A DNA stretch of 34,119 nucleotides from contig JAEEZC010000232.1 of assembly GCA_016288465.1 (NCBI GenBank), positions 1 through 34,119 of the forward strand, given 5' to 3'. The stretch is from Verrucomicrobiota bacterium. GTDB lineage: Bacteria; Verrucomicrobiota; Kiritimatiellia; RFP12; UBA1067. Shown here one piece after another: positions 10,065 through 34,119 of the stretch. The notes beneath the pieces were generated by a model that was not told the origin of the DNA, did no database searches, and saw only the letters and a program-made list of their open reading frames with translations. Within the stretch, counting starts at the first letter, position 1, and each line of letters begins with the position of its first letter. Both the position numbers and the translations under genes were made by a program.

Positions 10065-10071
10065 ATTAGGC

Positions 10072-11217
10072 ATGAAAACCAAGATACTCCAATTCGGCGA
10101 GGGGAACTTCCTCAGGTGCTTCATTGACTGGATGGTCGAGAAGGCCAACCGGAACGCGGGCTTCGACGGAGCCGTGCAGATAATCCAGCCCATAGGCGAC
10201 GAGCTGAGCGCGCCTTCGAAGGCCCTGAACGCGCGCGGCGGCCGCTACCACACGTGCCTAAGGGGAATCTCCGGCGGCAGGACGATCGAGGAGATCGACG
10301 AAGTCACGTGCGTCAGAGGCGTAGACGTCGCGGCGAACGTCGAGCGGTACGCCGCCGAGCCCGAGCTGCGGTTCGTCGTCTCCAACACGACCGAGGCCGG
10401 CATACAGTACGTCAAGGGCCAGGACACGTTCCCTGCAAAGGTCCTGAGGCTGCTCAAGGCGCGCCGAGCGGCAGGGCTGCCGGGTCTGGTGTTCATTCCG
10501 TGCGAGCTCATCGAGCACAACGGCGACAACCTCAGGAGATGCGTACTCGCGCACTGCGCGGACGATGGCGACGCCGATCTCGCGGCGTGGATTGAGAGGG
10601 AATGCGTCTTCTGCTCCACGCTTGTGGACCGCATCGTCGCAGGCCGTCCCGACCCTGAGTCCGCCGAGCGATACGCCGAGAAGCTGGGCGAGAGAGACGA
10701 GGTGCTCGTCTGCGGAGAGCCCTTCCACTTCTTCGTCGTCGAGACGCCGGAAGGCTTCGACCTTGAGGCCGAGCTACCCCTCGCAAAGGCCGGCGTGAAC
10801 GTCGTATACACACGGGACATGCAGCCCTACCGCACGCGCAAGGTCCGCTTCCTCAACGCCACGCATACGACAATGGTCTATCTTGGGCTTGAACGCGGCT
10901 TCACGGAAGTCGCCCAGTGCATAGAGGACCCGGAGTTCAACAAGTTCGTGCGCAAGGTCGTATTCGAAGAGATATTCCCGACCGTAGCCCTTCCCGACGC
11001 CGAGAAGAAGGAATACGCCGAAAGCGTGCTGGAGCGCTTCGCCAATCCGTTCGCCCACCACAAGCTCGAGTCCATAGCGCTCAACACGATAGCGAAGTGG
11101 AAGGCTCGCTGCCTTCCTGTCGTATGCGACTACGCCAAGGCGTTCGGCAGGCTGCCTGAGGCGATGATGCAGGGCTACGACGCGATCGCGAGGCACTACG
11201 ACAGCTTAGGGCGCTGA
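10072..11217 (+). CDS. uxaB: Tagaturonate reductase (mannitol dehydrogenase superfamily)
   Basis: MKTKILQFGEGNFLRCFIDWMVEKAN...VFIPCELIEHNGDNLRRCVL...FLNATHTTMVYLGLERGF, typical of UxaB. Confidence 0.88.
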   Translation: MKTKILQFGEGNFLRCFIDWMVEKANRNAGFDGAVQIIQPIGDELSAPSKALNARGGRYHTCLRGISGGRTIEEIDEVTCVRGVDVAANVERYAAEPELRFVVSNTTEAGIQYVKGQDTFPAKVLRLLKARRAAGLPGLVFIPCELIEHNGDNLRRCVLAHCADDGDADLAAWIERECVFCSTLVDRIVAGRPDPESAERYAEKLGERDEVLVCGEPFHFFVVETPEGFDLEAELPLAKAGVNVVYTRDMQPYRTRKVRFLNATHTTMVYLGLERGFTEVAQCIEDPEFNKFVRKVVFEEIFPTVALPDAEKKEYAESVLERFANPFAHHKLESIALNTIAKWKARCLPVVCDYAKAFGRLPEAMMQGYDAIARHYDSLGR

Positions 11218-11230
11218 AGCCGGAGGCCGC

Positions 11231-12604
11231 ATGATAATCAACCCGAAGGACAACGTCGAGATACGCGACGACGGGCACAAGTACGCGCTGCGCGACATCG
11301 CCGAGGGCGAGGACGTGGTGAAGTACGGCATGCCGATAGGCCATGCGACGCGGGCCATCCGCAAGGGCGAGCACGTGCACGTGCACAACGTGAAGACGAA
11401 TCTCGGAGAAGTGCTCGAATACCGCTACGAGCCGGACTTCGAAGACGTCGCGCCCATGCCGCCGCCGACAATGACGGCGTTCCGCCATCCCGACGGACGA
11501 GTCGGCATCCGCAACGAGCTATGGATCGTACCGACCGTAGGATGCGTGAACTCGCTTTGCGAGCGGCTCGCGGCCGCCGTCGGCGGCATTGCGCTTTCGC
11601 ATCCGTACGGATGCTCGCAGCTAGGCAGGGACCACGAGACCACTGCCGGACTGCTCGCGGCACTTTGCAGGCATCCGAACGCCGGCGGCGTGCTCGTCGT
11701 CGCGCTCGGATGCGAGAACAACACGCTCGAAAGCTTCAAGGCAAGGCTTGGGATCGGTCCCGACGACGCGGACGGGGCTCGCGCGGGCCTGAACATGCGG
11801 TTTCTGCGGGCGCAGGACGCAGGGGACGAATACGAGCGCGGGCTGGCGCTGCTACGGGAGCTGGACGCGGCGCGCCCCAAGACGCGAGTGGAGGTTCCCG
11901 TCTCGGAGCTTGTCGTCGGTCTGAAGTGCGGCGGCTCCGACGGATTCTCGGGGCTCACTGCCAATCCGCTTGTCGGCCGCTTCTCGGACTGGCTGGCTGC
12001 GCGCGGAGGCTCGACGGTGCTTACCGAGGTCCCGGAGATGTTCGGCGCGGAGACGCTGCTGATGAAGCGCTGCCGGACGCGCAGCGTGTTCGAGAAATGC
12101 GTCAGAATGATCAACGACTTCAAGGGCTACTACGCCTCGCACAACCAGGTCTGCTACGAGAATCCCTCTCCAGGCAACAAGGCTGGAGGCATAACGACGC
12201 TTGAGGACAAGTCGCTTGGATGCGTGCAGAAAGGCGGCTCCGCCCCTGTCGAAGACGTGCTGGACTACGGCGAATGCGTAAGGTCGCACGGCCTCTCGCT
12301 TCTCACCGGCCCCGGCAACGATCTGGTCGCCTCGACGGTCCTTGCCGCGGCAGGATGCCATCTGATACTGTTCACGACCGGGCGGGGCACTCCCTTCGGC
12401 TGCGTCGTGCCGACGGTCAAGGTCGCCACAAACGACGCCCTCGCGGCCAGCAAGCCCAACTGGATCGACTGGAACGCGATGTCCTGCCCAGACACGGAGG
12501 CCTTCGCGGCGAAGGTCGTGTCCATCGCATCGGGCGAACCCGCCCGCAACGAGACTAACTGCGCGCGCGGAATCGCGATTTTCAAGGACGGGGTGACGCT
12601 CTGA
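11231..12604 (+). CDS. uxaA: Altronate dehydratase
   Basis: N-terminal SAF-like domain (MPIGHATRAIRKGEHVHVHNVKTNL), then VGIRNELWIVPTVGCVN...HPYGCSQLGRDHETT...LKCGGSDGFSGLTANPLVGRFSDWL...NPSPGNKAGGITTLEDKSLGC: UxaA motifs. Confidence 0.92.
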   Translation: MIINPKDNVEIRDDGHKYALRDIAEGEDVVKYGMPIGHATRAIRKGEHVHVHNVKTNLGEVLEYRYEPDFEDVAPMPPPTMTAFRHPDGRVGIRNELWIVPTVGCVNSLCERLAAAVGGIALSHPYGCSQLGRDHETTAGLLAALCRHPNAGGVLVVALGCENNTLESFKARLGIGPDDADGARAGLNMRFLRAQDAGDEYERGLALLRELDAARPKTRVEVPVSELVVGLKCGGSDGFSGLTANPLVGRFSDWLAARGGSTVLTEVPEMFGAETLLMKRCRTRSVFEKCVRMINDFKGYYASHNQVCYENPSPGNKAGGITTLEDKSLGCVQKGGSAPVEDVLDYGECVRSHGLSLLTGPGNDLVASTVLAAAGCHLILFTTGRGTPFGCVVPTVKVATNDALAASKPNWIDWNAMSCPDTEAFAAKVVSIASGEPARNETNCARGIAIFKDGVTL

Positions 12605-12648
12605 CGCGAATGCGCCGTCCAAACACGCATTACGGAGAAACACAGGCA

Positions 12649-13749
12649 ATGGAATCACTAAACGTAAAGCCGGCGGAGAGCTGCCGGTGGGACGCCGCCA
12701 GCCTCGGCGAAATCATGCTGAGACTCGACCCGGGAGACGGGCGCATACACACAGCCCGCGAGTTCAGGGTATGGGAAGGCGGCGGAGAATACAACGTGGT
12801 GCGCGGCCTTAGGCGCTGCTTCGGCATGAGGACGACTGCCGTTACCGCGTTTGCCGACAATCCGGTCGGCAGGCTTGTCGAGGACTTCATGCTTCAGGGC
12901 GGCGTCGACGTCTCGCACGTCAAATGGACTCCATACGACGGAATCGGCAGAACGGTTCGAAACGGTCTTAACTTCGTGGAACGGGGCTTCGGGTGCCGCG
13001 GCGCCAGAAGCTGCGCCGACCGCGGCCTTACGGCGGTCAGCCAGCTTAGGCGCGGCGACATCGACTGGGACGGCCTGTTCGGCCGCGAAGGCGTTCGCTG
13101 GTTCCATACCGGCGGCATATTCGCGGCGCTTTCGGAGACGACCGCAGAAGTCGCCGTGGAGGCGCTGAAGGCGGCGAAGCGGCACGGCACGGTCACGTCG
13201 TACGACCTCAACTACCGCGCAAGCCTCTGGAAGTCCATCGGCGGACAGGCGCGCGCGCAGGAGGTCAACCGCGAAATCGCCAAGTACGTGGACGTCATGA
13301 TCGGGAACGAGGAGGACTTCACGGCCGCACTCGGCATCGAAGTGGAGGGCGTGGACAAGAACCTCACCACCCTTCCCGTAGAAGGCTTCCGCAGGATGAT
13401 CGAAAAAGCCGTGTCGGCATACCCGAACTTCAAGGCGGTCGCGACGACGCTTCGCTCGGTCAAGTCTGCGACAGTCAACGACTGGTCGGCGATCTGCTGG
13501 TACAAGGGCACGCTCCACGAGTCAATCAGGCGCCCGGGCCTCGAAATTTACGACCGAGTCGGCGGCGGAGACTCCTTCGCGTCCGGTCTCGTCTACGGCT
13601 TCATGACGTTCGACGACGCCGAGAAGGCCGTCAACTACGGCGCTGCGCACGGTGCGCTGGCGATGACCACGCCTGGCGACACTTCGATGGCGACTCTCTC
13701 GGACGTCGAGAAGCTTGTAGGCGGCGGCTCGGCTCGCGTCGACCGCTAG
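12649..13749 (+). CDS. kdgK: PfkB-family sugar kinase, probable 2-keto-3-deoxygluconate kinase
   Basis: LGEIMLRLDPGDGRIHTAREFRVWEGGGEYNVVRGLRRCFG...DLNYRASLW...GGGDSFASGLVYGFM: PfkB signatures. Position after uxaBA supports KDG as substrate. Confidence 0.82.
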   Translation: MESLNVKPAESCRWDAASLGEIMLRLDPGDGRIHTAREFRVWEGGGEYNVVRGLRRCFGMRTTAVTAFADNPVGRLVEDFMLQGGVDVSHVKWTPYDGIGRTVRNGLNFVERGFGCRGARSCADRGLTAVSQLRRGDIDWDGLFGREGVRWFHTGGIFAALSETTAEVAVEALKAAKRHGTVTSYDLNYRASLWKSIGGQARAQEVNREIAKYVDVMIGNEEDFTAALGIEVEGVDKNLTTLPVEGFRRMIEKAVSAYPNFKAVATTLRSVKSATVNDWSAICWYKGTLHESIRRPGLEIYDRVGGGDSFASGLVYGFMTFDDAEKAVNYGAAHGALAMTTPGDTSMATLSDVEKLVGGGSARVDR

Positions 13750-18179: not shown

Positions 18180-19769
18180 TCAGCCCTTGAAGCCGTCAAG
18201 AACGGTCTGCCGCGTGCGCTTCGACTGCCGCGGATAGTCCAGCGTGTAGTGGAGCCCGCGGCTCTCGTGACGCTTCTGCGCCGACCTGACGATCAGCTCC
18301 GCGCACACCGCAAGGTTGCGCAGCTCCAGCGTGTCCGGTGTCACGAGATAGCGGAAGTAGTAGTCGCGTATCTCGCGTCTGAGCGTGCGGATCCTGTGCG
18401 CGGCGCGCGCCAGGCGCTTGTTCGTGCGGACGATGCCCACGTAGTCCCACATCAGCCTGCGAATCTCGTCCCACATGTGCGACACGAGCACCGCCTCGTC
18501 CGGCGGCACGGCGTTGCCGATCTTCCAGTCCGGTATCCTGGGCGGCCGCGCGCCGAAGCTCTCCGGATGCGGACCAAGCCTCGCCGCCGTCATCCTGGCG
18601 CAGACGAGCGCCTCCATGAGCGAGTTCGACGCCAGCCGGTTCGCTCCGTGCAGCCCCGTGCACGCGCACTCGCCGACGGCGGAAAGTCCCTTTATCGAAG
18701 TGCGCCCGTCCGTCGCCGCCTGGATGCCGCCGCACATGTAGTGCGCCGCCGGCACGATCGGTATCAGGTCGGAGGCCATGTCTATGCCGAACTCCATGCA
18801 CTTCTGGTAGATGTTGGGGAAGCGCGTCATGAGGTACTTGCGCCCCTTGCTGCGGATGTCCAGGAACATGCAGTCGTCGCCGGTGCGCTTCATCTCGCTG
18901 TCGATCGACCTGGCCACGATGTCGCGCGGCGCAAGCGAGCCGCGCGGATCGTACTTCTTCATGAACTCCCTGCCATGCTTGTTCACAAGGACCGCACCTT
19001 CGCCGCGCACCGCCTCGCTGATGAGGAAGCGCTTCGCCTGCGGATGGTAGAGGCAGGTGGGATGGAACTGCACGAACTCCATGTTCTCTATCTTCGCGCC
19101 GGCGCGCCACGCGATCGCAATGCCGTCGCCGGTCGCGGTGTCGGGGTTGCACGTGTACAGATAGACCTTGCCGCAGCCGCCTGTCGCAAGTATCGTGTTC
19201 GGCGTGCGCACCGCGTATATCTCGCCAGTCTCCTTGTCGAGCACGTACGCGCCTACGCACCTGTTCTCGCCCTTGAGCCCTATGCGGCGCGTCATCACGA
19301 GATCGATGACTATCGCCTTCTCGCGGACGTCGACACCCGACCGCCTGATCTTCCTGATCATCGCCGCTTCGCACTTCTCGCCCGTGATGTCGCCCGCGTG
19401 CAGTATGCGCCGCGCGCTGTGCCCGCCCTCCCTGGTGAGGTCGAGTTCTCCGTCGGGCCGCCGCGAAAACCTCACGCCGCAGTCGATGAGGTCGCGTATC
19501 CCCTCGGGCGCATGCTCGCATATCTCGTGGACCACCTCGCTCTTGCCGAGCCAGGCCCCCGCTATCATCGTGTCGCGCTCGTGGTTGCCGAACGTGTCCG
19601 CCTTGTCCATGACGCAGCAGATGCCGCCCTGCGCGAAGTTCGTGTTGCAGTCCTGCAGCCTCCCCTTTGTCGCAAGCACGACCTTGCCGTACGACGCGAG
19701 GTGCAGCGCGCTCATGAGCCCGGCCATGCCGGACCCGACGACGAAATAGTCGCAGTCTATCGTTCTCAT
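18180..19769 (-). CDS. nadB: L-aspartate oxidase
   Basis: DYFVVGSGMAGLMSALHLASYGKVVLATKG...NTNFAQGGI...EGGHSARRILHAGDITG...VQFHPTCLYHPQAKRFLISEAVRGEGA...PAAHYMCGGIQ...GECACTGLHGANRLASNSLMEALV. Confidence 0.93.
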   Translation of the reverse strand: MRTIDCDYFVVGSGMAGLMSALHLASYGKVVLATKGRLQDCNTNFAQGGICCVMDKADTFGNHERDTMIAGAWLGKSEVVHEICEHAPEGIRDLIDCGVRFSRRPDGELDLTREGGHSARRILHAGDITGEKCEAAMIRKIRRSGVDVREKAIVIDLVMTRRIGLKGENRCVGAYVLDKETGEIYAVRTPNTILATGGCGKVYLYTCNPDTATGDGIAIAWRAGAKIENMEFVQFHPTCLYHPQAKRFLISEAVRGEGAVLVNKHGREFMKKYDPRGSLAPRDIVARSIDSEMKRTGDDCMFLDIRSKGRKYLMTRFPNIYQKCMEFGIDMASDLIPIVPAAHYMCGGIQAATDGRTSIKGLSAVGECACTGLHGANRLASNSLMEALVCARMTAARLGPHPESFGARPPRIPDWKIGNAVPPDEAVLVSHMWDEIRRLMWDYVGIVRTNKRLARAAHRIRTLRREIRDYYFRYLVTPDTLELRNLAVCAELIVRSAQKRHESRGLHYTLDYPRQSKRTRQTVLDGFKG

Positions 19770-21394
19770 GGGATGCGCTCGTAGCGCGGCAGGCGCGCAA
19801 GTGGTACGTTCTCAAGGCGCAGCGTCTTCGGCCCTTCGTGAGTCTCGCCGAGGTCGTCGCGCCACTTTCCGGCCGGCAGCTCCACGGTCTTCGCGTCGTC
19901 GGGCGTCACGACCGGCGCGACGAGCCAGCGGCTGCCGAGCATGAACTGCTGCATCGGACGGTTGAAGCCCTGGTGAGGGAACTCGTACTCCATCGCCCTG
20001 ACGATGGGCTCGCCCGTGACGGACGCGTGCCGCGCTGTCTCGAGGATGTACGGCGCGAAGTCCACGTGCAGCTGCGCGAACGCGCGGCAGAGCTCCACGC
20101 CGGACTTCGAAAGGTGCCGCCAGGGCGCCGGCGAGAACTGCATCATCGGCATGAGCGCCTGCATCGCCGCCGAGCGCACGAACAACTTCTCGTCTATCCT
20201 GCCTCCGACGAAGGAGAGCTCAAGGCCCCCGCCCACCATGTCCGCCACAAGATACGGGCAGCCGAGAAGGCCCGCCGCGACGACCTGTGGTATCACTGTG
20301 TCCTGCGCCCTGCTGCCTGTCCACGCATGCGCGCGGTCGTTGAGGCGCGTCACGAGCGGAAGGCCTCCGCACTTCCAGCTCACGCGTATCTCGTGGTACG
20401 GAAACTCCCTCGCCGCAAGCTCCGCGTAGAGGCGCGTGTAGTCGACGGGGTCCGCCTTCTCGTCGTGGAAACGGCAGTCCTCGATGAACATGGCGGGGTC
20501 TCCCGCGTCGAACTTGAAGCCCGTTATGCCGTACTCCGCCGCGAAGTCGCGCAGGGTCTTCGCGTAGAACTCGGCCGCTTCCGGCTTGGTGAGGTCGTAG
20601 ACCGCGCTGATGCCGCTCCACCAGCGCACCACCGCCGCGTCGTGCGAGCCGGGCTTTCTGCGGTAGGCGAGGTAGTCGAGCCCGTTGAGCTTCGGGTGGT
20701 AGCGCAGCCTCTTGTACTCGCGGCTGTCCGGAGTCACGAAGTGCGCCGTCCAGATGAGAGACTTCCAGCCATGCGCGTTGATGCGGCCGAACATCCCCCT
20801 GGGATCGGGAAAGTCCTTCGCGTAGAACTCGTACGAGCCCTGGTGCGAAAGCCACCCGCCGTCCATCATGTACACGCCGCACTGGAACCCGCTCTTCGCA
20901 AGCTCCTCCGTGAACGCGTCCACGGACTTCTGGTTCGTTCCGTTGAGGAATATCTCGATCCAGTTGTTCCACTGCGGCAGCGAGAAGAAGATGTCGGGCG
21001 GCGTCCTGCCCTCGAAGCGCATGTGCGCCTTCGCCGCCGCGAGATAGGCGTCCTTCAGGGTCTTTCCGGCGACGACCGGCTCGACCCTCTCCACGTCGGA
21101 GTCGAGAACGAGCCTGCCCGCCCTGAACTCGTAGCCGAACGGCTTCTCACTCCACACGTAGCGCCCGCACGACGACACCAGAAGAGGCGAGGACGTGTTG
21201 CCGTGGCCGCGCAGGTCTATCCGCCTGCTGTCCGCGATGCCGTACGGCTGGCTCTGGCCGTCCGCGCCGCCGCCGCCCCACCACCGCTCGCCCTCCAAAA
21301 GCGGTATCTCGGTGACGACCGGCACGGCGGCCAGCCGCATCGCGACGAGCGCCGCCACGGAGACGGACAGCGCAAGGCCAGGAGATGACTTCAT
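19766..21394 (-). CDS. Secreted glycoside hydrolase family 31 protein (MYORG-like GH31 branch)
   Basis: Signal peptide MKSSPGLALSVSVAALVAMRLAAVP; GVYMMDGGW...GITGFKFDAGDPAMF...MVGGGLELSFVGGRIDEKLFVRSAAMQALMPMMQFSPAPWR. Start 21394 overlaps the upstream stop (ATGA). Confidence 0.82.
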   Translation of the reverse strand: MKSSPGLALSVSVAALVAMRLAAVPVVTEIPLLEGERWWGGGGADGQSQPYGIADSRRIDLRGHGNTSSPLLVSSCGRYVWSEKPFGYEFRAGRLVLDSDVERVEPVVAGKTLKDAYLAAAKAHMRFEGRTPPDIFFSLPQWNNWIEIFLNGTNQKSVDAFTEELAKSGFQCGVYMMDGGWLSHQGSYEFYAKDFPDPRGMFGRINAHGWKSLIWTAHFVTPDSREYKRLRYHPKLNGLDYLAYRRKPGSHDAAVVRWWSGISAVYDLTKPEAAEFYAKTLRDFAAEYGITGFKFDAGDPAMFIEDCRFHDEKADPVDYTRLYAELAAREFPYHEIRVSWKCGGLPLVTRLNDRAHAWTGSRAQDTVIPQVVAAGLLGCPYLVADMVGGGLELSFVGGRIDEKLFVRSAAMQALMPMMQFSPAPWRHLSKSGVELCRAFAQLHVDFAPYILETARHASVTGEPIVRAMEYEFPHQGFNRPMQQFMLGSRWLVAPVVTPDDAKTVELPAGKWRDDLGETHEGPKTLRLENVPLARLPRYERIP

Positions 21395-23493
21395 TTGACT
21401 GTTGTTCCTTTCATGCCTTCTTTCACAAGCGACAGCTCCTTGAAGCATATCTCGTCGGCAGGCGCCGACGACTTTATCGACATTGCCACAAGCTCGGTCA
21501 CCCCAAGGTCGAAGTCGAGGTCGAGCGAGGCCTCCATCCCGTGCCACGCTCCGTCGGCCGGGCAGACGAACTCGGCCCTCTCGGTCTTCTCGTTCGAGAA
21601 GACCGCCGCCTTCAGCTTCACCGGCTCGGCGTTCCCGGCCTTCGCCTGGAAGGAAAGCCTGTATCTTCCGTTGCCGTGGCGAAGGAACGCGTCCGTGAAT
21701 ATGTTGACGATGCCGGCGTTCCGCTCGCACTGCTTGAGGCGGTAGACTCTCTTTCCGTCCTCCATGCCGACGGCGTCGAACTTGACGAGCCACGACGGAC
21801 TCCTCTGCCACGCGCTCCGCGTCGCCGGCCTGTCGGCAAGCAGGTTCTCCCCGTCGTCCGGCTGCTCCTCGCGCAGCTCGCCCTTCCGGCGGTCAACCTT
21901 GCGGCAGTCGCGCTGGAGCGACGCTCCGATGTAGCGCTTGTAGGGGCATGTCCAGCCGACTTCGTGCCTGTCGGGAACGGCCGGTATTGCGCTCTTCGCA
22001 AGGACGTTCGTGACCGAAAGCCGCATCCGCTCGGGATTCACGACGCACTGCCCGGGTATCGCGTCAAGCCTCTCGCCCCCTACCCAGAGGTTCGTTATGG
22101 CAATCGTGTAGTTGTCGGTGTCGAGCAGCTTCGCGGAGTCGTGGCGGACCACCACCGCCGCTCCGCCGCGCTGCCCTATCGTGCGCCAGTCGTCCTTTCC
22201 TGTCGCATGAGGCACCGCGACGTTCTCGAAGCCGAAGACCTTCGGCAGCGTGCCCATGTTGCCGCCGACGAAGAATCGCGCGTAAAGCACGCAGTCCACA
22301 GCCGACAGGTTCTTTATGTGGAACTGCTGCCTTTGGTGCCTGAGGTCCTGAGGCCCGGGCTCCTTCTTCGCCTCGCCAGTCCCGGTCTCGCTCCACTTCG
22401 TGTTCCGCCGCAGCACTCCGTTGTAGATGTTCTCGATTGTCCCTTCGTCGGCCCTGAACACGTCGACGTTCTCCATCTCCACGCCGTAGTTGCTGCCCTG
22501 CGGGAATATCGCCTTGCACGACGTCCCGATCGCGACGTTGCGGAAGAGGGCCCCGCCGCCGATGCCGCTCACGACGAGCGCGTTGTCGCCCACGTAGAGC
22601 CACGCGCCGTCCACCGTCAGCCCCCGCCCGCCGCACGTTATCCCGTCCGAGCACATCATCGACGCAAGCGCGCGGACGTTCCTGAGCGTCACGCCGTTCG
22701 CGAACGTGCAGTAGTTGAACGTGCGGGCGTCGACGAGCTTCACGTCCTCAACCGTCACGCCGGGCGCCGATATCCTCATGAACCCGCGCGACTGGTTCTT
22801 CACCTGCTCGAAGCGGAACACGTCCGAGAACGGATCCAGCATCATGCCGCGCCCGTGGACGTAGGCGCCCGGACTCCTCACGACGAGACGGGAGTTTAGC
22901 ACTGCGCCGGGCGCAATGTAGACCTCCTTCACGGGCGGCTCGACCACCGTCACGCCGTCCTCTCCCGGCGGATCTGTCCACTTGTCGATGTAAAGGACGC
23001 CAGGCGCCCCTTTCGCCGGCACCTTCGACGGATCCTCCGGCGCGTCTGCGAAGACGGAAAGTATCGTCTTGTCGTAGTCGTTGAGCCTTATGCCGAAGGA
23101 CGCAGGCTTTTCCAGCGTCACGGATATCACGCCGTTCGAGAACGAGCTCCTGAGCCCGAGCCGGGACGGAAAGACCGCGTAGCTCTGCACATCCTCCGCA
23201 ACCACTATGTCGACGCGCACCGGGCCGCCGGAAAACGCGAACTCGCAGAACCTGCGGTTGACGTCCCCTCCGCGCGTCCGCGTGCTCAGCGGGGACTTCT
23301 CGCAGTGGTTGTAGACGGTGACCATCTTCTTGGCGTCGCCCTGCACAACCCGCACGGCGTACGCGTAGTCCCGCTCTATCTCACGAGGATATTCAGGATA
23401 GACGACTATCTCCGCCGCCGCGGACGTCGCGAACGCCGCCGCCATCAGACCGATCGTCCACTGAACCCTGCGCATTTTCCCGAGCATCCACAT
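21391..23493 (-). CDS. Secreted right-handed parallel beta-helix glycosidase-like protein (GH49/GH28-like) with C-terminal beta-sandwich region
   Basis: KEVYIAPGAVLNSRLVVRSPGAYVHGRGMMLDP...ISAPGVTVEDVKLVDARTFNYCTFANGVTLRNVRALASMMCSDGITCGGRGLTVDGAWLYVGDNALVV; signal peptide MRRVQWTIGLMAAAFATSAAA. Confidence 0.7.
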   Translation of the reverse strand: MWMLGKMRRVQWTIGLMAAAFATSAAAEIVVYPEYPREIERDYAYAVRVVQGDAKKMVTVYNHCEKSPLSTRTRGGDVNRRFCEFAFSGGPVRVDIVVAEDVQSYAVFPSRLGLRSSFSNGVISVTLEKPASFGIRLNDYDKTILSVFADAPEDPSKVPAKGAPGVLYIDKWTDPPGEDGVTVVEPPVKEVYIAPGAVLNSRLVVRSPGAYVHGRGMMLDPFSDVFRFEQVKNQSRGFMRISAPGVTVEDVKLVDARTFNYCTFANGVTLRNVRALASMMCSDGITCGGRGLTVDGAWLYVGDNALVVSGIGGGALFRNVAIGTSCKAIFPQGSNYGVEMENVDVFRADEGTIENIYNGVLRRNTKWSETGTGEAKKEPGPQDLRHQRQQFHIKNLSAVDCVLYARFFVGGNMGTLPKVFGFENVAVPHATGKDDWRTIGQRGGAAVVVRHDSAKLLDTDNYTIAITNLWVGGERLDAIPGQCVVNPERMRLSVTNVLAKSAIPAVPDRHEVGWTCPYKRYIGASLQRDCRKVDRRKGELREEQPDDGENLLADRPATRSAWQRSPSWLVKFDAVGMEDGKRVYRLKQCERNAGIVNIFTDAFLRHGNGRYRLSFQAKAGNAEPVKLKAAVFSNEKTERAEFVCPADGAWHGMEASLDLDFDLGVTELVAMSIKSSAPADEICFKELSLVKEGMKGTTVK

Positions 23494-25000: not shown

Positions 25001-25019
25001 GGCTGGTACTACACCAGCC
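25001..25019 (-). terminator. Perfect 7-bp hairpin at the end of the MBL-fold gene (weak intrinsic-terminator candidate)
   Basis: GGCTGGT-N5-ACCAGCC spanning the stop codon, followed on the minus strand by TTTCGGCTCC. The U-tract is poor. Confidence 0.35.
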
Positions 25020-25953
25020 GTTCGCCCCAGAGCGGCATGAGGGCGGAGAAGCCGGCCGCTTCGAGCTGGGCCTTCTCGTTCAGTCCGTCCCGATAGGTCC
25101 AACGGTAGCGCCCCTTTGCATGTCCCATCTCCTGAAGGTGCGCGATCACGGCCGTCTTCGGGCGGACGGCCTCCTGGCATCCCGCAACCGCCTTCATCCC
25201 GCAGCGCGGATGGAACACCCACATGTCCGGCTGGCGCGAGACATGGAGCTTGGCGTGGTCCGAACAGTCTCCGGAATGGAACAGGGTGAAGTTCCCTATC
25301 TCCACTTCGAATGTCGTCGTGTAGTCGATGAGATAGCTGTTGTGGTCGCAAAGGCCGGTGACGATCTTCACGTCGCCGTAGACGAACGTCTTCGTCTTCG
25401 CGCGGGTGTAGCCGCCGAGCTTCCTGTCGCTCACGCCGTAGTTGTCGAAGAAGTTGTTCACGACCGGCTTGTGCTGGACGCGGTCCATGGCGACCTTGAA
25501 CCGCTCAGTGTAGTGGTCGTTGTGGTTGTGCGTGATGAGCGCGAAGTCGAGAAGCGGCGCGAACTCCTCCGCCCGCCGATGATGCAGGTCGATGGAGAAC
25601 ATCGTCTTCGGAGTCTTGACCACGAGCCCCATGTTGTACACATACCATATCGCCGGACGGTTGACGTCTTCAACGACGGTGTCCTTCGCCTCGCGGAACA
25701 CCTTGTCGAACGCCGCCTCCAGACGTCCAAGCACGGGGAATCGGGCGACATGCTCCGCAAGCAGATTGCCGGGCATCTGCGTGCCGGGCGCCCAATACGC
25801 CTCGAATTCCTGCGGCGTGATCGCGTCGATCTCGCTCTGGCGCTCGTCGAGGTCCGGGTCTCCGGTTGGCGTGCGCTGCTGGGCGAAAACCCGTCCCAAT
25901 GCCATCGCAGATGCGGCGGCTACGCAGTTTTTGGTGAATTCACGTCTGTTCAT
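25009..25953 (-). CDS. Tat-exported metallo-beta-lactamase-fold hydrolase
   Basis: MNRREFTKNCVAAASAMALGRVFA (twin-arginine signal); ITHNHNDHYTERF (HxHxDH); FHSGDCSDHAKL. Confidence 0.85.
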   Translation of the reverse strand: MNRREFTKNCVAAASAMALGRVFAQQRTPTGDPDLDERQSEIDAITPQEFEAYWAPGTQMPGNLLAEHVARFPVLGRLEAAFDKVFREAKDTVVEDVNRPAIWYVYNMGLVVKTPKTMFSIDLHHRRAEEFAPLLDFALITHNHNDHYTERFKVAMDRVQHKPVVNNFFDNYGVSDRKLGGYTRAKTKTFVYGDVKIVTGLCDHNSYLIDYTTTFEVEIGNFTLFHSGDCSDHAKLHVSRQPDMWVFHPRCGMKAVAGCQEAVRPKTAVIAHLQEMGHAKGRYRWTYRDGLNEKAQLEAAGFSALMPLWGERLV

Positions 25954-26000
25954 GATGTTGCCGCATTATGACTTGTGCCGCACGCGATTCCAGATGTCCG

Positions 26001-27968
26001 TTATCGCACAGCCATGTCGGAGCTGTACTCCAGCCCAGGCACTTCGCGCGGATGGTCGGTCGTACCTGCTACGGGAATGAACGTGCCGCTCCAGCGATGG
26101 CGCGTCTCTCCTTCGGAAGCGGGATTGGGAATCGTCAGCTTCACGTGGTTCCAGCCCTTGCGCAGCCAGATTGGCGTCGGCTCGCGCATGTAATACTCCT
26201 GGTCCGTGAACGGCTCCTCGTCAGCCTCGTAGAGCGTCCACGCCGGCGTCCAGTCCTCGATTGGCGCGCCCTTCTTCAGTCCCGGGCGCTTCCACTTCGG
26301 CGGAGCGATCTTCTCCCCGTTCAGTTCGACGGACGCTCCGAAGCGGTTCCACTCGCCGACGTCCGGGAGCGGAGCGGAATACACTAGCCCGTGGTCTCGC
26401 GTAATGTTGGTGAAGCCGATCCACGCGCCGACGGTCTGGTCCTTGGGCGACTTTATCCAGGTTTCGGCAATCACAGTCCCGTTGGAGACGCCGCACCCCT
26501 CGCGTCCCGGCGAGATAGTCGCCTGGGCGACGTCCTTCGCGATCAGCGCACCGTCTTCCTGCGTCAGACGCCAGCGCATGTCCGTCTGGCGAAGGAAGTG
26601 AAAGGGATGCTTCAGGTCGCCGAGCGCGCGGTCGCGCTGCGCCACCACTCGACGCTCGATATCCGCCGCCTCGGCGAGCAGCGGATCGCCGCCATGCGGA
26701 AGGCGCTTGCGGAACTGCGGCAGGTCGTCGTCGCGTCCATGCCAGTATGCGTCGCCGAAGAGGACGCACGACGGGAACACCGGCTGGTTGCGCAGAAGGT
26801 TCTCGTACGGAAGCCCGACGAATCCGTCGTGCCACGCGCAGAAGACCGCTCCGAAGTTCTTCTCCCCCGCGTCATGCCAGCGGGCCGCCTTGTGGTATGC
26901 GGCGACCGACAGAAGCTCGAACGGGTCGAAGTCCTCGATGTACATGCCGATTGCGTCCAAGTACGGCCCGGGATGCGTGTCGGGCGAGGCCTTGTCGGTC
27001 CAGAGCATGTTCACATGCGGCGCGGCGCTTTCGTAGTCCTCTCCGGGAACCCAGCTGACGACGGTGCGCCCCGCATTGCCGATCGCCCTGGACATCTGCA
27101 CAAGCGCATCGGCAGTCGCGCCTTCGAAGTCGCGCTTGTACACCTCGTCCGTTCCCATGTGGACGAACGGCATCTTCTCTTTCGGCGCGAGCGAGCATAG
27201 CTCCTCGAACAGCGCGGCGGCGGTCTCGGCGACGCCCGGATCGGACATCGTCTTGAAGCCGAACGCGCGGCGAAACGCGAGCGCGTGTCCGGGGAAGTCG
27301 AACTCCGGCATTGTGCAGATGCCGCGAGCATACGCGTAGTCGACGACTTCCCTGAACTCCTCCTGCGTGTAGAACTTGCCCTTGTGCCTGTGCAGGAACG
27401 CCCTCTCCGACTGCAGCTCCGGGAAGCGCTTCGACTCCAGGCGCCATGCGTAGTTCTCGGTGAGATGCCAGTGGAAGAGGTTGAGCTTGTAGCGCGACAT
27501 CACGTCGATGACGTCCTTGACGCCCTGCACCGGCAGGTAGTTGCGCACAGTGTCCAGCATGAACCCCCGCCACTTGAGGCGCGGCCAGTCCACGATGCGT
27601 CCGCACGGCACCCGCCCATCGCGCGAGAGGCGCACGAGCTGGTCGAGCGTCACGCGCGCCCATCGCTCGCCGCGCGGACCCGGCGCCGTTATCCGCACGC
27701 CTTTCGGAGAGATGTCGAGAATGTAGGCCTCGTCCGCCGTCGCCGCCGGCGCGCCCGGAACCGCTTCGCGGACCACTGTCACGTTCCCGAGCGCCGCCGT
27801 CTGGGCAATGCGCGCCCCGCCCGCCGCCGGCGTCTCCACCTTCGCCGGACGCGGCATCAGCTCGTCAACGACGGAGCCCTCCTGGCTCCCCTGACAAGTT
27901 CGAAGGGCGCATCCGCCGACAATCGCCAGCGCCGCAATGATCCTCAAAATGGATGGTGACGCAATCAT
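26001..27968 (-). CDS. Glycoside hydrolase family 20 beta-N-acetylhexosaminidase-like protein
   Basis: RLKWRGFMLDTVRNYLPVQGVKDVIDVMSRYKLNLFHWHLTENYAWRLE...MPEFDFPGHALAFRRAFGF...FVHMGTDEVYKRD (GH20 catalytic DE). N-terminus resembles a lipoprotein/secretion signal. Confidence 0.92.
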   Translation of the reverse strand: MIASPSILRIIAALAIVGGCALRTCQGSQEGSVVDELMPRPAKVETPAAGGARIAQTAALGNVTVVREAVPGAPAATADEAYILDISPKGVRITAPGPRGERWARVTLDQLVRLSRDGRVPCGRIVDWPRLKWRGFMLDTVRNYLPVQGVKDVIDVMSRYKLNLFHWHLTENYAWRLESKRFPELQSERAFLHRHKGKFYTQEEFREVVDYAYARGICTMPEFDFPGHALAFRRAFGFKTMSDPGVAETAAALFEELCSLAPKEKMPFVHMGTDEVYKRDFEGATADALVQMSRAIGNAGRTVVSWVPGEDYESAAPHVNMLWTDKASPDTHPGPYLDAIGMYIEDFDPFELLSVAAYHKAARWHDAGEKNFGAVFCAWHDGFVGLPYENLLRNQPVFPSCVLFGDAYWHGRDDDLPQFRKRLPHGGDPLLAEAADIERRVVAQRDRALGDLKHPFHFLRQTDMRWRLTQEDGALIAKDVAQATISPGREGCGVSNGTVIAETWIKSPKDQTVGAWIGFTNITRDHGLVYSAPLPDVGEWNRFGASVELNGEKIAPPKWKRPGLKKGAPIEDWTPAWTLYEADEEPFTDQEYYMREPTPIWLRKGWNHVKLTIPNPASEGETRHRWSGTFIPVAGTTDHPREVPGLEYSSDMAVR

Positions 27969-27975
27969 GGAGACA

Positions 27976-29007
27976 TCAGCTGTCGCTTTGCTTCGCGATG
28001 ACCGGCGCGGACAGGTCGATGGCCGTGACCAGGTCGTTCCTCCAATGCTGAATAGTATGCCGCCACGGCGCCATGATGAAGCCCTTCAGACGATCAGGAG
28101 AGATGTTCTTGCGGCAGAAATCCACAGTCCCGGCGAAGTTCTCGACGCAACTGTAGTTGGACCCTGTCGGCATCTGGTCGAATCCGCCGCGCTCAAGGTC
28201 GAGATACGCCTTCACAGTATTGCGCGACGCCGGATCAAACGTCTTGCCGTAGTACCAGTTGGACTGAAGGACGCTCTTGGGCATTCGCTTCAGGAACTCG
28301 TCGGTGTGCTTCCAGATGTAGTCGCTCCATATCCACGGGCGCATTCCGGCCTTCTCGATCTGTTCGACCATCCAGAGCAAGTCGTGCCACCAGAGATCGC
28401 CCTGGCGCACGACGACATACCGATACCGGTCCTGGTGCCCGTAGGTCTCCTCGTCATAGCCGATGTGGAAGAGGCGCGGATGTCCGAAGAGCTCGGCCAC
28501 GTCACGTATCAGGTCGGCGCAGACCTGGTAGTACTTCGGCGTCGAGACCATGCGGCTGTAGTCCTTGAGCCAGATGTCGTGCGCCGTCGAGAAGTTGAGC
28601 TTCGGCACAGGCTCCAATCCCATGGCCCGAAGGCGGGCAAGCTCCTTCCGCAGCTTCTCGGGCGACCAAGACCCCTTCACCGCGAGTTCGGGATGGCTTG
28701 GGTACTGGACGCCCTCGGCAAGGTCCATCAGCAGCATGTTGAAGCCCGCCGCACGAGCCTTGTCGGTGAGCTCCACCCAGAGCGCATCGTCGCACCTGAG
28801 CTCCTCGGACGGCGCCTTGTAGTGCATCTCGTCCGGCTTGAGGTTTCCCCAGCGAGGCGGCACGCAGTCGCACCACATGTTCGTGCCGAGCTTGAGCATG
28901 TAGCACCATGCGAAATCAGGGCGTGCCGGCCCGTCGCTCCAGACAGTCGGGCAAGCGGCCGTCGCGGCGGCCGCGCCCAGAAAACTTCTTCTCGTCATGT
29001 CGTTCAT
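27976..29007 (-). CDS. Tat-exported GH20-like TIM-barrel protein of unknown specificity
   Basis: MNDMTRRSFLGAAAATAACP (twin arginine); ...LEPVPKLNFSTAHDIWL...LFGHPRLFHIGYDEETYG (HxGxDE-like motif), ...GMRPWIWSDYIW. Confidence 0.65.
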   Translation of the reverse strand: MNDMTRRSFLGAAAATAACPTVWSDGPARPDFAWCYMLKLGTNMWCDCVPPRWGNLKPDEMHYKAPSEELRCDDALWVELTDKARAAGFNMLLMDLAEGVQYPSHPELAVKGSWSPEKLRKELARLRAMGLEPVPKLNFSTAHDIWLKDYSRMVSTPKYYQVCADLIRDVAELFGHPRLFHIGYDEETYGHQDRYRYVVVRQGDLWWHDLLWMVEQIEKAGMRPWIWSDYIWKHTDEFLKRMPKSVLQSNWYYGKTFDPASRNTVKAYLDLERGGFDQMPTGSNYSCVENFAGTVDFCRKNISPDRLKGFIMAPWRHTIQHWRNDLVTAIDLSAPVIAKQSDS

Positions 29008-29040
29008 CTTGCTTCAATTCTCCTTTTCCACTTCAGCCCT

Positions 29041-31875
29041 TCAAGGCAAGCTAAAGACGTGTTCGCCGGCAGCGACCTCGCGGCGCGCGCCATCCGGCGT
29101 CTCGACCGTCGCCGTCGTGTTCGGCGGCACCGTCACACGCCATTTCCATCCGCCACCGTCTTCATACGCCCAAGCGCTCTTGATCCGGCCGTACGGCGAA
29201 TCGAAATGCGCGGCGACCTTCCCGATCCTCCTGTCCGGCTTCGGCGCGAGGACGAAATGGCGCCAACCAGGCGACTTCGGGTCGGGCTGGATGCCAGCCA
29301 TCGCACCGTACATCCATTCCAACACTGCGCCGTATGCGTAGTGGTTGTAGCTCTTCATGCTCAGGCGCAGGAACCCCGCCTCCTTCGAATAGCCGTTCCA
29401 GCGCTCCCATATGGTCGTGGCGCCCTGCTCCACAGAATGCAGCCAAGACGGATTGTTCCGCTGGAGAAGAAGCGTGTAGGCGACGTCGGGACGCCCCACC
29501 TCATACGTAAGCACGTCCATGATGATGGGCGTGCCGAGGAACCCAGTCTGCAGGCGGTCGCCATGCTCCTGGATGTTCTTCAGCAGGGCGTCCTTCGTCG
29601 CCGCGATTGCGTCGGGCTTCTCAAGAACGCCGAACTTCAGCGCGAAAAGCGCCGGCGTCTGCATCCCGCGCAGGCATCCCGGCAGCATCCCGTCGTCCTC
29701 CAGAAAGCGCCGGCGCACGTAGGCGAGCGCCTCGTCCGCCATCGCCCGATACATCGCCGCGGCCTCCGCCTTGCCGAGCGCCTCTGCCATCTCCGCGCAC
29801 ATATGCGCATCCATGAGCCAGTAGCAGCCGCCGAGGAAATGCCAGTAGACGAGCGCATCGGCCCTGGGACGCCACTTGCCGTCCGTCCCCTTTTCGAACG
29901 CGCCGCCGTCGTGCGACTCCAGCGGCTCGAACGACACCCAGTCTCCCCACTGATACTCGTTGGCGGCCGGCGAATCGAACCGGTTCTTGGCCGTGAGCGC
30001 CATGTACCGTTCGATTGCGGCGAAGTTCTCCTCCACGATTGCGACGTCTCCGTAGCGCTTCCACATGGTGTACGGCACGATCACCCCTGCATCGCCCCAG
30101 CCGAAGCGCTCCGCATCGTCGCCGAAGAGCCCGGGCGGCGCCACGCCGGCGAAGGAGCCCCCGTCATGCTGCGAATCGCGCATGTCGCGCATCCACTTGC
30201 GCAGGAAGCCGTAGACGTCGGCGTTGCGCGACGCCGCCGCGCAGAACACCTGCGCATCCGCCGTCCAGCCCAGCCGCTCGTCGCGCTGTGGACAGTCCGT
30301 CGGCACCGAAAGGTAGTTCGAATACTGGCTCCAGAGCACGTTCGAGACGAGCTTGTTCACGTCGGCGACGCCCGTCTCGATCTTCCCCGACTCGCTGGCC
30401 TTCGTAACCGAAGAAACCGGCACGGACGCAATCTCGCGGAAACTTACGTCGTCCGTCGCCGTCACGGACAGGTAGCGGTAGCCGAGGTAGGTGAACGCGG
30501 GACGGTAGAACTCGTCCCCGTCGCCCGAGAACACATACTCGACCTTCGCGCCCCAATCCCGCAGGACGCGCAGATTGCCGCGATAGACGCTTCCTTCCGG
30601 TCCGTCGTTCCCGCGGTCCCTGCGTCCGCCTCCGTCGCAAAGCATCTCGCCCGCCTTCGCCACAACCCGCGTCCCCTCGCGTGCCGCAAAGCGGAACTCC
30701 GGCACTGCTGCGGCGTTCTGGCCGAAGTCCACGACGAGCGTCTCGCCCGCCTTAAGCTCGACTTCATTCGCCGCCTCGTACCGACGCAGTATGTTCACCT
30801 TGCCGTATGCCTCTTCGGATTCGCCAGTGACGCCCTTCCAGACGTACAGCGCGCGCGGCGCCATCCGCAGGTCCTCGCGCAGCGACACCGCCGGACCTTC
30901 CATCGGCACAATCTCGCCCTTGAACTCGCGGCAGATCTTCACCGGCGCAAAGGCCGCGTCCTCGCCAGTAGTCATCCAAGGCGTCTTTTCCCGCGCATCG
31001 TATTCCTCGCCGTCGAAAATGCCCGCCGCCTTGACAGGACCCGTCACGCCGCCGCGCCAGCTTTCGTCCGTCCCGAACCGCGCCTGAGTGCCGTCCGCAT
31101 ACCGCAGTATGAGCTGCGCGCGGAAGGCCGACTCCTTGCCGCGGTAGTCCGTCACCTTGTCGCGCCACCAGCCCGCCGTGACGATGGACGAAAGCACGTT
31201 GTCCTCGTCCGCACCCCTGTTCACCAGCCCCGTCACGTCGAAGGTGAAGGAGTGCCGCGTCTTGAGGACATGGTCGAAGCCGGGCTTGAGGAATCCGGGC
31301 AGCGGCCTGCCGTTCACGTACGCCTGGAACACTCCCTGTCCCGTCACAGTCCACCAAGCCTCCTTGACGTCCTTGCCGTTCCTGAGCCGCTTCGCGAAAC
31401 ACGAGGAGCCCGGCATTGCGCGCCGATGCCTGCGGACCTCCCTGGAGACGTCCGTAGCCGCGTTCGGCACGGCGATCCAATCGCTGCCGCTCCAGTCGTC
31501 CGGCGCGATCAGCCCCGTCGTAAACGTAGCCGGCTCCGAAGAGACTTCACGGCCGCGATCGTCCGTCACAACGACCGACCAGACGTACCGCGTTGCGCTC
31601 TTCAGGGCCGGTCCCGTGTATGGCACCGCATGCGACGTCGCCTCGCAGACCTTGCCCGACCGCCAGACGTCCTCGCCGGAAGCTGTGCGCAGGACGATCT
31701 CGTACGCCTTCTGCGCGGCGCCCTTCCGCTCGGTCCGCATTTGCCACGAAAACACGGGCTTCACAATGTCGGAAGGCTCGACAAGGTGGCATACGCGAAG
31801 ATTCTCCACGGTCACGTTTGCAACGGACGCTGCCGCACAAAGCGCGGCAGCCGCTGCCAGCAAACAATTATTCAT
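29041..31875 (-). CDS. Secreted glycoside hydrolase family 78 alpha-L-rhamnosidase
   Basis: Start 31875 gives signal peptide MNNCLLAAAAALCAAASVA; VENLRVCHLVEPSDIVKPVFSWQM...AYEIVLRTASGEDVWRSGKV...YLSVPTDCPQRDERLGWTADAQVF: GH78 hallmarks. Confidence 0.93.
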   Translation of the reverse strand: MNNCLLAAAAALCAAASVANVTVENLRVCHLVEPSDIVKPVFSWQMRTERKGAAQKAYEIVLRTASGEDVWRSGKVCEATSHAVPYTGPALKSATRYVWSVVVTDDRGREVSSEPATFTTGLIAPDDWSGSDWIAVPNAATDVSREVRRHRRAMPGSSCFAKRLRNGKDVKEAWWTVTGQGVFQAYVNGRPLPGFLKPGFDHVLKTRHSFTFDVTGLVNRGADEDNVLSSIVTAGWWRDKVTDYRGKESAFRAQLILRYADGTQARFGTDESWRGGVTGPVKAAGIFDGEEYDAREKTPWMTTGEDAAFAPVKICREFKGEIVPMEGPAVSLREDLRMAPRALYVWKGVTGESEEAYGKVNILRRYEAANEVELKAGETLVVDFGQNAAAVPEFRFAAREGTRVVAKAGEMLCDGGGRRDRGNDGPEGSVYRGNLRVLRDWGAKVEYVFSGDGDEFYRPAFTYLGYRYLSVTATDDVSFREIASVPVSSVTKASESGKIETGVADVNKLVSNVLWSQYSNYLSVPTDCPQRDERLGWTADAQVFCAAASRNADVYGFLRKWMRDMRDSQHDGGSFAGVAPPGLFGDDAERFGWGDAGVIVPYTMWKRYGDVAIVEENFAAIERYMALTAKNRFDSPAANEYQWGDWVSFEPLESHDGGAFEKGTDGKWRPRADALVYWHFLGGCYWLMDAHMCAEMAEALGKAEAAAMYRAMADEALAYVRRRFLEDDGMLPGCLRGMQTPALFALKFGVLEKPDAIAATKDALLKNIQEHGDRLQTGFLGTPIIMDVLTYEVGRPDVAYTLLLQRNNPSWLHSVEQGATTIWERWNGYSKEAGFLRLSMKSYNHYAYGAVLEWMYGAMAGIQPDPKSPGWRHFVLAPKPDRRIGKVAAHFDSPYGRIKSAWAYEDGGGWKWRVTVPPNTTATVETPDGARREVAAGEHVFSLP

Positions 31876-31891
31876 CAATGCGCTGTACACG

Positions 31892-32836
31892 TCAGAAATC
31901 GAAATCGACAAGGATCGGGCGATGGTCGGACGGACGCCAGATGTCGCCCACACCGGCGTAAGTCGGACGCGTGTAGCGGTCGACCACGACACGCGCCTCA
32001 GTTACATGGTCGTAAAGCCCTCGCGTCATATAGACGTAGTCTATGCGCGACTTCTCTCCGCACGTCACGTGGAAGTCGTTCGGCAGCCATTCGTGCATGA
32101 GATCGACGAGGGGCGTGCTTTCGGCAAGCCACCTGTGAACCGCGTAGCGAGGGGAATCCAGCGGAATGTCGTACATCCGCGCATCGACCGGCGAGCGGGC
32201 ATTGTAGTCGCCCGCGACGACCCAGTACTGGTTCGTCGCGTCGGGCACGGTGAAGAACGACCCTTTGAGAACCGTCTCGATCTCGTCGCGGCGGGCCAGG
32301 TCGCCGCCGAACTTCGCCGCGCTTGCCTTGCGCTCGGCGTCCGACTTGCAGCCGCGTCCCCACGGCGTCCAGTTGAGGTGGACCGTAACGATGTTGATGA
32401 CGTTCGTCCCCGCCCTTACCTTCGCCCATCCCGATCCTGTCGGGACGAGGGCCTTGGCGACGCTCTCGATGGGATAGCGCGACGTGATGCCCTGCATGTA
32501 GCACTTCGGGTCTTCCGAACTTATCCAGACGTTGCCGTGTCCGTACCGCGCGGCAAGCTCCGGCCAGCCTTTTGGGAGAATGCGCTGCGATTCGTCCTTG
32601 ACGTGGTCGGTCTTGCCCGTCTGACGCTTCGTCTTCACCTCCGCGAAGACGCAGATGTCCGGCGACAGCTTCTGGACCCATTCCACGAAGCGGTTGAAGT
32701 TGTCGGTCTGCCCGTCCCACATCCCGTCCTGGATGTTCCAGTAGAGCATCCGCGTCGATCCGCAGGCAGTGCCGGCGAGAACGCCGGCAATCAACGCCAG
32801 CGTTCCCGCGCTCAGTATTCGTTGTTTCTTCTGCAT
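31892..32836 (-). CDS. Secreted endonuclease/exonuclease/phosphatase (EEP) fold protein
   Basis: Signal peptide MQKKQRILSAGTLALIAGVLAGTACGS; MLYWNIQDGMWDG...ICVFAEVKT...VTVHLNW...WVVAGDYNARSP...IDYVYMTRG...RPSDHRPILVDF. Confidence 0.88.
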   Translation of the reverse strand: MQKKQRILSAGTLALIAGVLAGTACGSTRMLYWNIQDGMWDGQTDNFNRFVEWVQKLSPDICVFAEVKTKRQTGKTDHVKDESQRILPKGWPELAARYGHGNVWISSEDPKCYMQGITSRYPIESVAKALVPTGSGWAKVRAGTNVINIVTVHLNWTPWGRGCKSDAERKASAAKFGGDLARRDEIETVLKGSFFTVPDATNQYWVVAGDYNARSPVDARMYDIPLDSPRYAVHRWLAESTPLVDLMHEWLPNDFHVTCGEKSRIDYVYMTRGLYDHVTEARVVVDRYTRPTYAGVGDIWRPSDHRPILVDFDF

Positions 32837-32838
32837 GT

Positions 32839-34119
32839 TCACCTTACCACCACCATAGTTCCCGACGGCGTGTACTCCACCCGCGCCGTCGCAGGCTCGC
32901 CCTTTACCGTCTCGTTGAACACCGTGTAGACCGGGACAACCTTGTAGATGCGCACGTGCGGCGCCCTGCCCACCCATGTCAACGTCAGCGAATCGGTCGT
33001 TTCGGGCAGGAGCTTGTCGTCTTCATACCATTCGTAGCTCTGCGCACCCGCGGCAACGCACGTAAGCGTGGACGTGTTCCGGGTGTATGTGAGCCTCGCG
33101 GGCTGCGGCGCGAGCTGGAACTCCTGCCCGGCAAGCGTGGCGCCACGCACCTTGCCGCCAGTCAACGGGAAGAACCTGTTCTGGCATGTCTCGTAAAGTC
33201 CCGCCGCACCGTTCTTTATGCATGGCACGAAGTTCCTGTCCAGAACGCCCGACTTGTAGATCTTCACGCCATAGAGGCGCATGCCTGCCGCATATCTGCC
33301 ATCGCAGCTGCCTCCAATTCGAAGAGTAGTTGAACACGTAGTGGCGGTAAGAGTACCACCATGCTGCGCCAGCTTGAAGGATTCTAGCGCCACGCCTCCT
33401 CTGTATGACGTGACAGTGTCGTTCGGTGCATCGAAGACGAACTTCACCCGTTCATTTGTAATGAAGGTCTTCTTGAACCATTCGTTATCCCCGGTATTAC
33501 GATCCGTGAAGCGCCAGCCATATCGGTATGCGCCCGACGGATAATAAAGGCTGAACCAGATACCGTCGGTACCGCTGCTCTTCTGATGGAAGAATACCGG
33601 AGCTGCAGATGGGGAAATCTTGAAATTGTTGTTCCATACGGCGAAGTCCGCTTCGACTCGGCAATCCTTGGTAACTACATATTCTGTATTTATAAGATGT
33701 CCCTCCACGCCGTCAAAGTCGAGATATGCCTCCTTCGCCGCCGCATCCCCCTGAATGTCGCCGCCGGCCTCGCACACGATGTTCGTGTGGGCGTTATTGT
33801 CAGGGCTTCCGTACACCGTCGAGTTGCGGCTGCCGTACACCGTGGGGAGAAGACCGTAGGTCGGTGCGGCCAGCGTGTCGCGAAGAATCGGCACGCTGTT
33901 GGTGATGCACGGCCGGTAGTCCCGAACCAACGTCTCGACGCCGTTCGCAGTCTCGTAGATCTTGAGCCCATATATCTTCATCGGCATCGCAGGATAACCG
34001 CCGGCGCGGAGGCCGACCTGAAGCAAAGTAGAATTCAAATTCGCCGTTACGGGACTGGAGGACGTGATATTGAAGTTCGTGTAGCCAGCGGTCTCCAGTC
34101 GAATATTGTTTGCGCTTGC
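32839..34119 (-). CDS. LamG/concanavalin A-like domain secreted protein (5' end outside window)
   Basis: The frame stays open to the window edge (ASANNIRLETAGYTNFNITSSSPVTAN precedes the called ORF). AYLDFDGVEGHLINTEYVVTKDCRVEADFAVWN...RFTDRNTGD...MRLYGVKIYKSGVLDRNFVPC; two copies of the K-I-Y-G-[LV]-K-I-Y end motif. Confidence 0.8.
   Translation of the reverse strand, partial: ASANNIRLETAGYTNFNITSSSPVTANLNSTLLQVGLRAGGYPAMPMKIYGLKIYETANGVETLVRDYRPCITNSVPILRDTLAAPTYGLLPTVYGSRNSTVYGSPDNNAHTNIVCEAGGDIQGDAAAKEAYLDFDGVEGHLINTEYVVTKDCRVEADFAVWNNNFKISPSAAPVFFHQKSSGTDGIWFSLYYPSGAYRYGWRFTDRNTGDNEWFKKTFITNERVKFVFDAPNDTVTSYRGGVALESFKLAQHGGTLTATTCSTTLRIGGSCDGRYAAGMRLYGVKIYKSGVLDRNFVPCIKNGAAGLYETCQNRFFPLTGGKVRGATLAGQEFQLAPQPARLTYTRNTSTLTCVAAGAQSYEWYEDDKLLPETTDSLTLTWVGRAPHVRIYKVVPVYTVFNETVKGEPATARVEYTPSGTMVVVR

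Follow-up and report, generated by a model that had tools for sequence, protein, structure and literature searches.

A probable modular, Sus-independent glycan-degradation operon led by a LamG-type protein in a rumen Kiritimatiellota genome

Ruminant Kiritimatiellota are uncultured, and a cluster of six minus-strand genes at the end of a contig from one of them raises the question of whether it represents a concrete type of locus, lacking SusC and SusD, for their breakdown of glycans. The whole stretch of DNA analysed, hereafter the window (34,119 nucleotides), is the entire contig C293 of a rumen-type Kiritimatiellota MAG (G000; 3.52 Mb in 393 contigs, contamination estimate 4.4%), whose closest named relatives are MAGs of Kiritimatiellae/Verrucomicrobia recovered from the rumen and gut. 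A SusD homologue was found nowhere in this genome, which is 82.6% complete, in a search whose control was positive only in Bacteroides, and no ORF for a SusC TonB-dependent transporter is present among the genes of the window. Together with the TatC encoded in the MAG, the absence of SusD supports the view of the preliminary description that the cluster is exported, glycan-degrading and of a non-Bacteroidota kind. The answer developed here, which on balance seems probable, is that it is a modular, exported, Sus-independent operon of rumen Kiritimatiellota for the stepwise trimming of a glycan.

The ORF coordinates (Table 1) confirm six minus-strand genes separated by 2, 16, 33, 7 and 47 nt, as first described. 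All six have homologues in other genomes, most of them at 50-92% identity, and are therefore real genes. No terminator-like site was found on the minus strand inside the cluster. Because the contig ends within the LamG gene, the operon's 5' end and promoter lie outside the sequence. Tight same-strand spacing is by itself common in bacteria; the support above chance for a putatively co-transcribed unit comes instead from the recurrence of its gene combinations in other loci. Export signals are present on all of the cluster proteins, the signal of the LamG-type head being seen in its orthologues.

Table 1. Coordinates of the cluster genes and of selected features within them (positions in the window).
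Feature	Position	Strand	Remarks
LamG-type head, 3' part of gene	32839..34119	-	426 codons seen, cut by contig end; orthologues L077:15687-18044 (82%), L091:2659-4971, L022, L023
C-terminal Ig-like domain (CTD) of head, ~95 aa	32842..33132	-	C-terminus reads ...PSGTMVVVR
EEP-fold secreted phosphodiesterase/phosphatase/nuclease (predicted), 314 aa	31892..32836	-	N-terminal signal peptide, motifs intact
GH78 alpha-L-rhamnosidase (predicted), 944 aa	29041..31875	-	Signal peptide; catalytic Glu aligned to 3w5m
G20L, Tat-exported GH20-superfamily enzyme of unannotated family, 343 aa	27976..29007	-	Profile and fold
G20L D185-E186, GH20-type catalytic pair (HxGxDE), nearly invariant	28450..28455	-	Alignment, profile
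G20L Tat signal peptide MNDMTRRSFLGAAAATAACPTVWS	28936..29007	-	
GH20 beta-N-acetylhexosaminidase (predicted), 655 aa	26001..27968	-	HMGTDE pair; possible lipoprotein signal
Tat-exported metallo-beta-lactamase (MBL)-fold hydrolase (UPF0173/UlaG-like), 314 aa	25009..25953	-	Ligands HxHxDH, H226/D229, H272

From the perspective of the individual enzymes, the domain calls originally made for the GH78, GH20 and EEP proteins proved solid. The GH78 protein matches PF17389 (6.9e-95) and contains all five Rha78A-type modules; its best PDB relative is the Streptomyces enzyme SaRha78A (3w5m, 1.3e-112), and the Glu of QRDERLGW and the Glu of WERWN align with E636 and E895 of that enzyme, which we take to be catalytic. 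This Bac_rhamnosid domain set with its pair of glutamates places the protein, by sequence, in GH78. The GH20 protein matches PF00728 (1.2e-39), with the D-E pair in HMGTDE and the N-terminal sugar-binding Arg in the motif KWRGFMLD. The EEP protein is assigned to its superfamily by a PF03372 match (1.1e-8) and by the intact active-site motifs WNIQ, AEV, VHLNW, GDYN, DYVY and SDHRP, and belongs to a rare lineage, found in 9 of 192 genomes. A second EEP protein, unrelated to that of the cluster, is encoded at 5482-6444 of the window (PF03372, 1e-9). The MBL-fold call misses the Pfam threshold (E 0.011); profile and fold are nevertheless UPF0173/UlaG-like and the metal ligands, HxHxDH and the further ones, are complete, so that the protein is a member of the MBL superfamily; the EEP, MBL and GH20-type folds each span many activities.

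The remaining enzyme, G20L, has no PF00728 match and belongs to no Pfam or NCBIfam family, its only hit being a sub-threshold Tat signal; a known CAZy-type family for it was sought in these collections and not found. Its profile nevertheless retrieves GH20 structures in the PDB (9fyl at 1.1e-9, with DspB among the matches), and its AF2 model (pLDDT 90) matches GH20 TIM-barrel enzymes (E 2.5e-12, probability 1.00, TM about 0.6), which bears out the earlier label 'GH20-like'. All 68 sequences compared have D185 and E186, and an equivalent of the KWRGFMLD Arg motif of the cluster GH20 was not recognised in a comparison made by eye rather than by superposition. By fold and catalytic pair, G20L is accordingly a GH20-superfamily protein with a predicted beta-hexosaminidase activity. 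The earlier suggestion that Tat export signals a bound cofactor is weak, as RR motifs are frequent across both Tat-exported families (in a crude count, 26 of 45 in the G20L family and 13 of 18 in the MBL family); a cofactor in G20L was rejected, given its GH20-type active site and the lack of a recognised cofactor site. Among 192 relatives, 102 have a match to the G20L family; the own genome has 10 matches and several genomes at least 10 copies, and this large unannotated family could hold new substrate specificities. Oscillospiraceae/Clostridiales MAGs labelled as Firmicutes (loci L031, L032) carry two or three G20L genes in a row, which suggests transfer or mis-binning.

The structural matches of G20L bear on one alternative, in which the cluster would scavenge biofilm or cell debris, the EEP protein acting as a secreted DNase and G20L as a dispersin-like hexosaminidase that together dissolve other bacteria's extracellular DNA and polysaccharide. 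EEP proteins do include secreted nucleases, and dispersins are found among the fold matches of G20L, as is DspB among its profile matches. G20L is, however, nearer to lacto-N-biosidase and GH20C than to dispersins, the EEP protein is not close in sequence to any solved nuclease, and no other nuclease genes were seen adjoining the heads, which makes this explanation quite unlikely.

The preliminary description further proposed a candidate six-gene system, which as a fixed set of conserved order was not borne out: the complete set is found in none of the 192 relatives and is unique to its own genome. LamG-EEP-GH78 is kept in four relatives from two genera. In three congeners (G009, G018 and G039) the order is LamG-EEP-G20L-GH78, with G20L and GH78 swapped relative to the window, and a divergent XylR/AraC-type regulator precedes LamG. 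In G086, from another genus (g14), LamG-EEP-GH78 reaches the contig end; the rest of its GH78 lies on a second contig, which overlaps the first by exactly matching 11 nt, and a GH20 that is 81% identical to that of the window comes after it. G004 has an orthologue of the EEP gene three genes ahead of a G20L paralogue. Close orthologues of the MBL protein (70-79%) occur in other contexts, mostly without adjoining glycan genes. Judging from these orders, LamG-EEP-GH78 is the conserved core, GH20 and G20L are frequent partners of it, and the MBL gene is an addition to the cluster in this genome. An assembly chimera, joining LamG-EEP-GH78 to G20L-GH20-MBL, would also account for an order seen whole in no relative, and the MAG is fragmented, with some estimated contamination; it is highly improbable, given that other genomes show G20L next to GH78 and, separately, GH20 following GH78, and that the junctions measure 7-47 nt with intact genes on either side.

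Within the own genome, the same families meet again behind other LamG heads. Contig C387 carries LamG-EEP-G20L, its EEP having no significant BLAST relation to that of the window; C237 carries a LamG tail followed by MBL, an LRR protein and EEP; and C291 carries LamG, two propeller-like proteins, a GH127-like protein and G20L. Within a few genes downstream of LamG heads lie 3 of 7 EEP, 3 of 10 G20L and 2 of 4 MBL genes, for which the rough binomial chance, with the window left out, is 0.002, 0.005 and 0.04, respectively, on the basis of a home-made gene caller, an assumed gene number of 3,300 and loci that were partly chosen through G20L and are partly orthologous to each other. In G004 (contig C55), a double EEP, a metallophosphatase, two G20L and a LamG head stand in one strand run. 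It would be unlikely, in view of this recurrence at separate loci of one genome and of a LamG-EEP-GH78 core kept in two genera, that there is no system at all and that independently mobile genes for exported hydrolases adjoin by chance, an explanation with which the varying gene order and content among relatives and the other contexts of MBL and GH20 orthologues would agree. LamG-CTD-led loci with phosphoesterases and GH20-superfamily enzymes are the more general form of the modular operon favoured here, and the part worth following.

The common element of these loci is the head protein. Full-length orthologues of the window head are 755-785 aa long and carry a Sec signal peptide, and the initial label 'LamG-like' is not returned by Pfam for the window protein or for these orthologues; within the CTD set, 4 sequences out of 50 match Laminin_G_3. 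The PDB profile of the A6 set was uninformative on LamG, being dominated by the GH2 domains of L187-L189. The CTD is common to LamG-type heads, stops exactly at the last residue, and matches by profile in 68 of 192 genomes, with up to 11 matches per genome; besides that of the window, examples are found in the A3 and A6 loci (L091 and L077 in Table 1). Of 63 CTD proteins, 54 end in a terminal motif, hydrophobic-x-hydrophobic-[KR], as do 26 of the 899 remaining genes in these loci. The CTD is not covered by any model in Pfam or NCBIfam, and full-length CTD proteins gave no hit to the T9SS C-terminal sorting domain (TIGR04183, NCBIfam) at E<=1. From its sequence features, the CTD is a candidate protein-sorting signal, and its tail motif is open to testing as such. 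The GH2 proteins L187-L189 have an Ig-like match and are probably not true CTD carriers, because they lack the terminal motif.

Genes directly 3' of CTD heads (n=65) include 7 for metallophosphatases, which trace by motif to four loci, three of them similar, as orthologous loci were partly counted repeatedly, and 2 for GDPD, in addition to GH20, GH127, GH123, GH3, GH35 and esterases. Genome-wide, metallophosphatases number 12-43 per genome in 7 of 8 genomes tested, a rate near 1%. Such recurrent phosphoesterases lend some support to the suggestion, made at the outset for the EEP protein, of phosphate removal, which is plausible. The second position behind a LamG-CTD head is often taken by a gene for a secreted propeller-like protein of ~300 aa without a Pfam family (L097:4327-6230, L108:873-2752, L152:2279-3205, L151:8347-9231 and L134:2446-3414).

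Regulators are found among the 47 genes preceding heads. On C291 (L097 913-4301), an ECF sigma gene overlaps by 4 nt the gene of a protein with a zf-HC2 anti-sigma domain, a TM segment and a LamG-CTD part, and on C387 (L096 11825-14770) an ECF sigma domain and a TM segment are joined directly to a LamG-CTD part, fusions for which a lost stop codon or an assembly frameshift is possible. These two heads are possible glycan sensors. Sigma and anti-sigma domains are absent from the orthologues of the window head, which have a plain signal peptide, and its own N-terminus lies beyond the contig. Gut Kiritimatiellota may, as a tentative generalisation that is still rather doubtful, possess a non-Sus glycan locus. 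Its operons would be led by a LamG head with an undescribed C-terminal domain for sorting or anchoring, ending in P-x-G-[ML]-x-hydrophobic-[KR], and would combine phosphoesterases (EEP, metallophosphatase, GDPD) with hydrolases of the GH20 superfamily and of other kinds; in some loci, fusion of the head to an ECF sigma or anti-sigma factor would let the operon be switched on when glycan is bound outside the cell.

In the mechanism proposed for the window, the LamG-type head, probably secreted and held at the surface through its CTD, would bind or sense the glycan, which the exported enzymes would strip from outside. The EEP protein would take off a phosphoester-linked decoration, GH20 and G20L would release beta-HexNAc units, GH78 would release alpha-L-rhamnose, and the MBL-fold protein may hydrolyse a further ester-type group, a lactone or ester decoration having been suggested for it in the preliminary description. 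A rhamnose polymer with HexNAc and phosphate would suit the joint presence of two HexNAc-type enzymes, a rhamnosidase and an EEP protein. Gram-positive cell-wall rhamnose polysaccharides are one such substrate, put forward as a guess that is more likely wrong than right; in streptococci, these polymers have a rhamnose backbone with GlcNAc side chains, part of which carry glycerol phosphate (PMC10043865). Plant RG-I or glycoprotein glycans may be the substrate instead. A sulfatase-based explanation was dropped, PF00884 having a single match in the whole genome and none in the cluster; marine relatives, in contrast, are sulfatase-rich.

The rest of the contig bears on the main alternative, a locus for plant-pectin side chains in which the GH78 substrate would be rhamnogalacturonan I or arabinogalactan protein and the hexosaminidases would attack the glycans of plant glycoproteins. 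A galacturonate pathway occupies 8802-13749, with a tagaturonate reductase, an altronate/galactarate dehydratase homologue and a KDG-type kinase at 10072-13749, accompanied by a divergent Peripla_BP_3-AraC (XylR/AraC-type) regulator, and a minus-strand GH31 gene overlaps by 4 nt that of a 700-aa beta-helix-like protein without a Pfam match (19766-23493). Both sets would fit pectin, and the best GH78 relative in the PDB, the Streptomyces enzyme 3w5m, is likewise counted in favour. The galacturonate genes, however, lie 12 kb off on the opposite strand, the cluster has no pectin lyase or GH28, and RG-I, being without HexNAc, would leave the two GH20-type enzymes and the EEP protein unexplained; this alternative is considered rather unlikely. 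Elsewhere, the contig encodes a 1464-aa protein with repeated Listeria-Bacteroides (PF09479) domains (526-4920) and an 89-aa fragment, possibly a gene remnant, that matches a Fic-like C-terminal domain (PF21247; 24616-24885).

The modular operon proposed here can be compared with several known systems. The cluster GH78 shares with SaRha78A the full domain order and both catalytic Glu, its rhamnosidase role being predicted. G20L resembles the GH20 hexosaminidases and lacto-N-biosidases (9fyl from Treponema denticola, 8bal Niako3494 and 5a6a GH20C) in fold and in the HxGxDE pair, but is only 14-17% identical to them, has no GH20b domain or PF00728 match, and has 10 matches in its own genome. The MBL protein has the fold and metal ligands of UPF0173/UlaG-like proteins such as TM_1162 (3x2z), from which it differs in its Tat export, its N-terminal helical extension and its position below the Pfam threshold. 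With SigI/RsgI-type polysaccharide sensing in Clostridium thermocellum (PMC4711584), the likeness lies in the tie of an outside binding domain to a sigma switch, which two paralogous LamG heads make here through an ECF sigma or an anti-sigma with a TM segment; these are of the ECF/zf-HC2 type, and are seen in the paralogous heads rather than in that of the window, which is cut short of its N-terminus. Finally, the Bacteroidota SusC/SusD PULs are likewise operon-like sets of an exported binding protein and glycoside hydrolases, and relatives of the window have a regulator nearby, whereas this genome is without SusD and the binding protein is of the LamG type with a CTD of its own.
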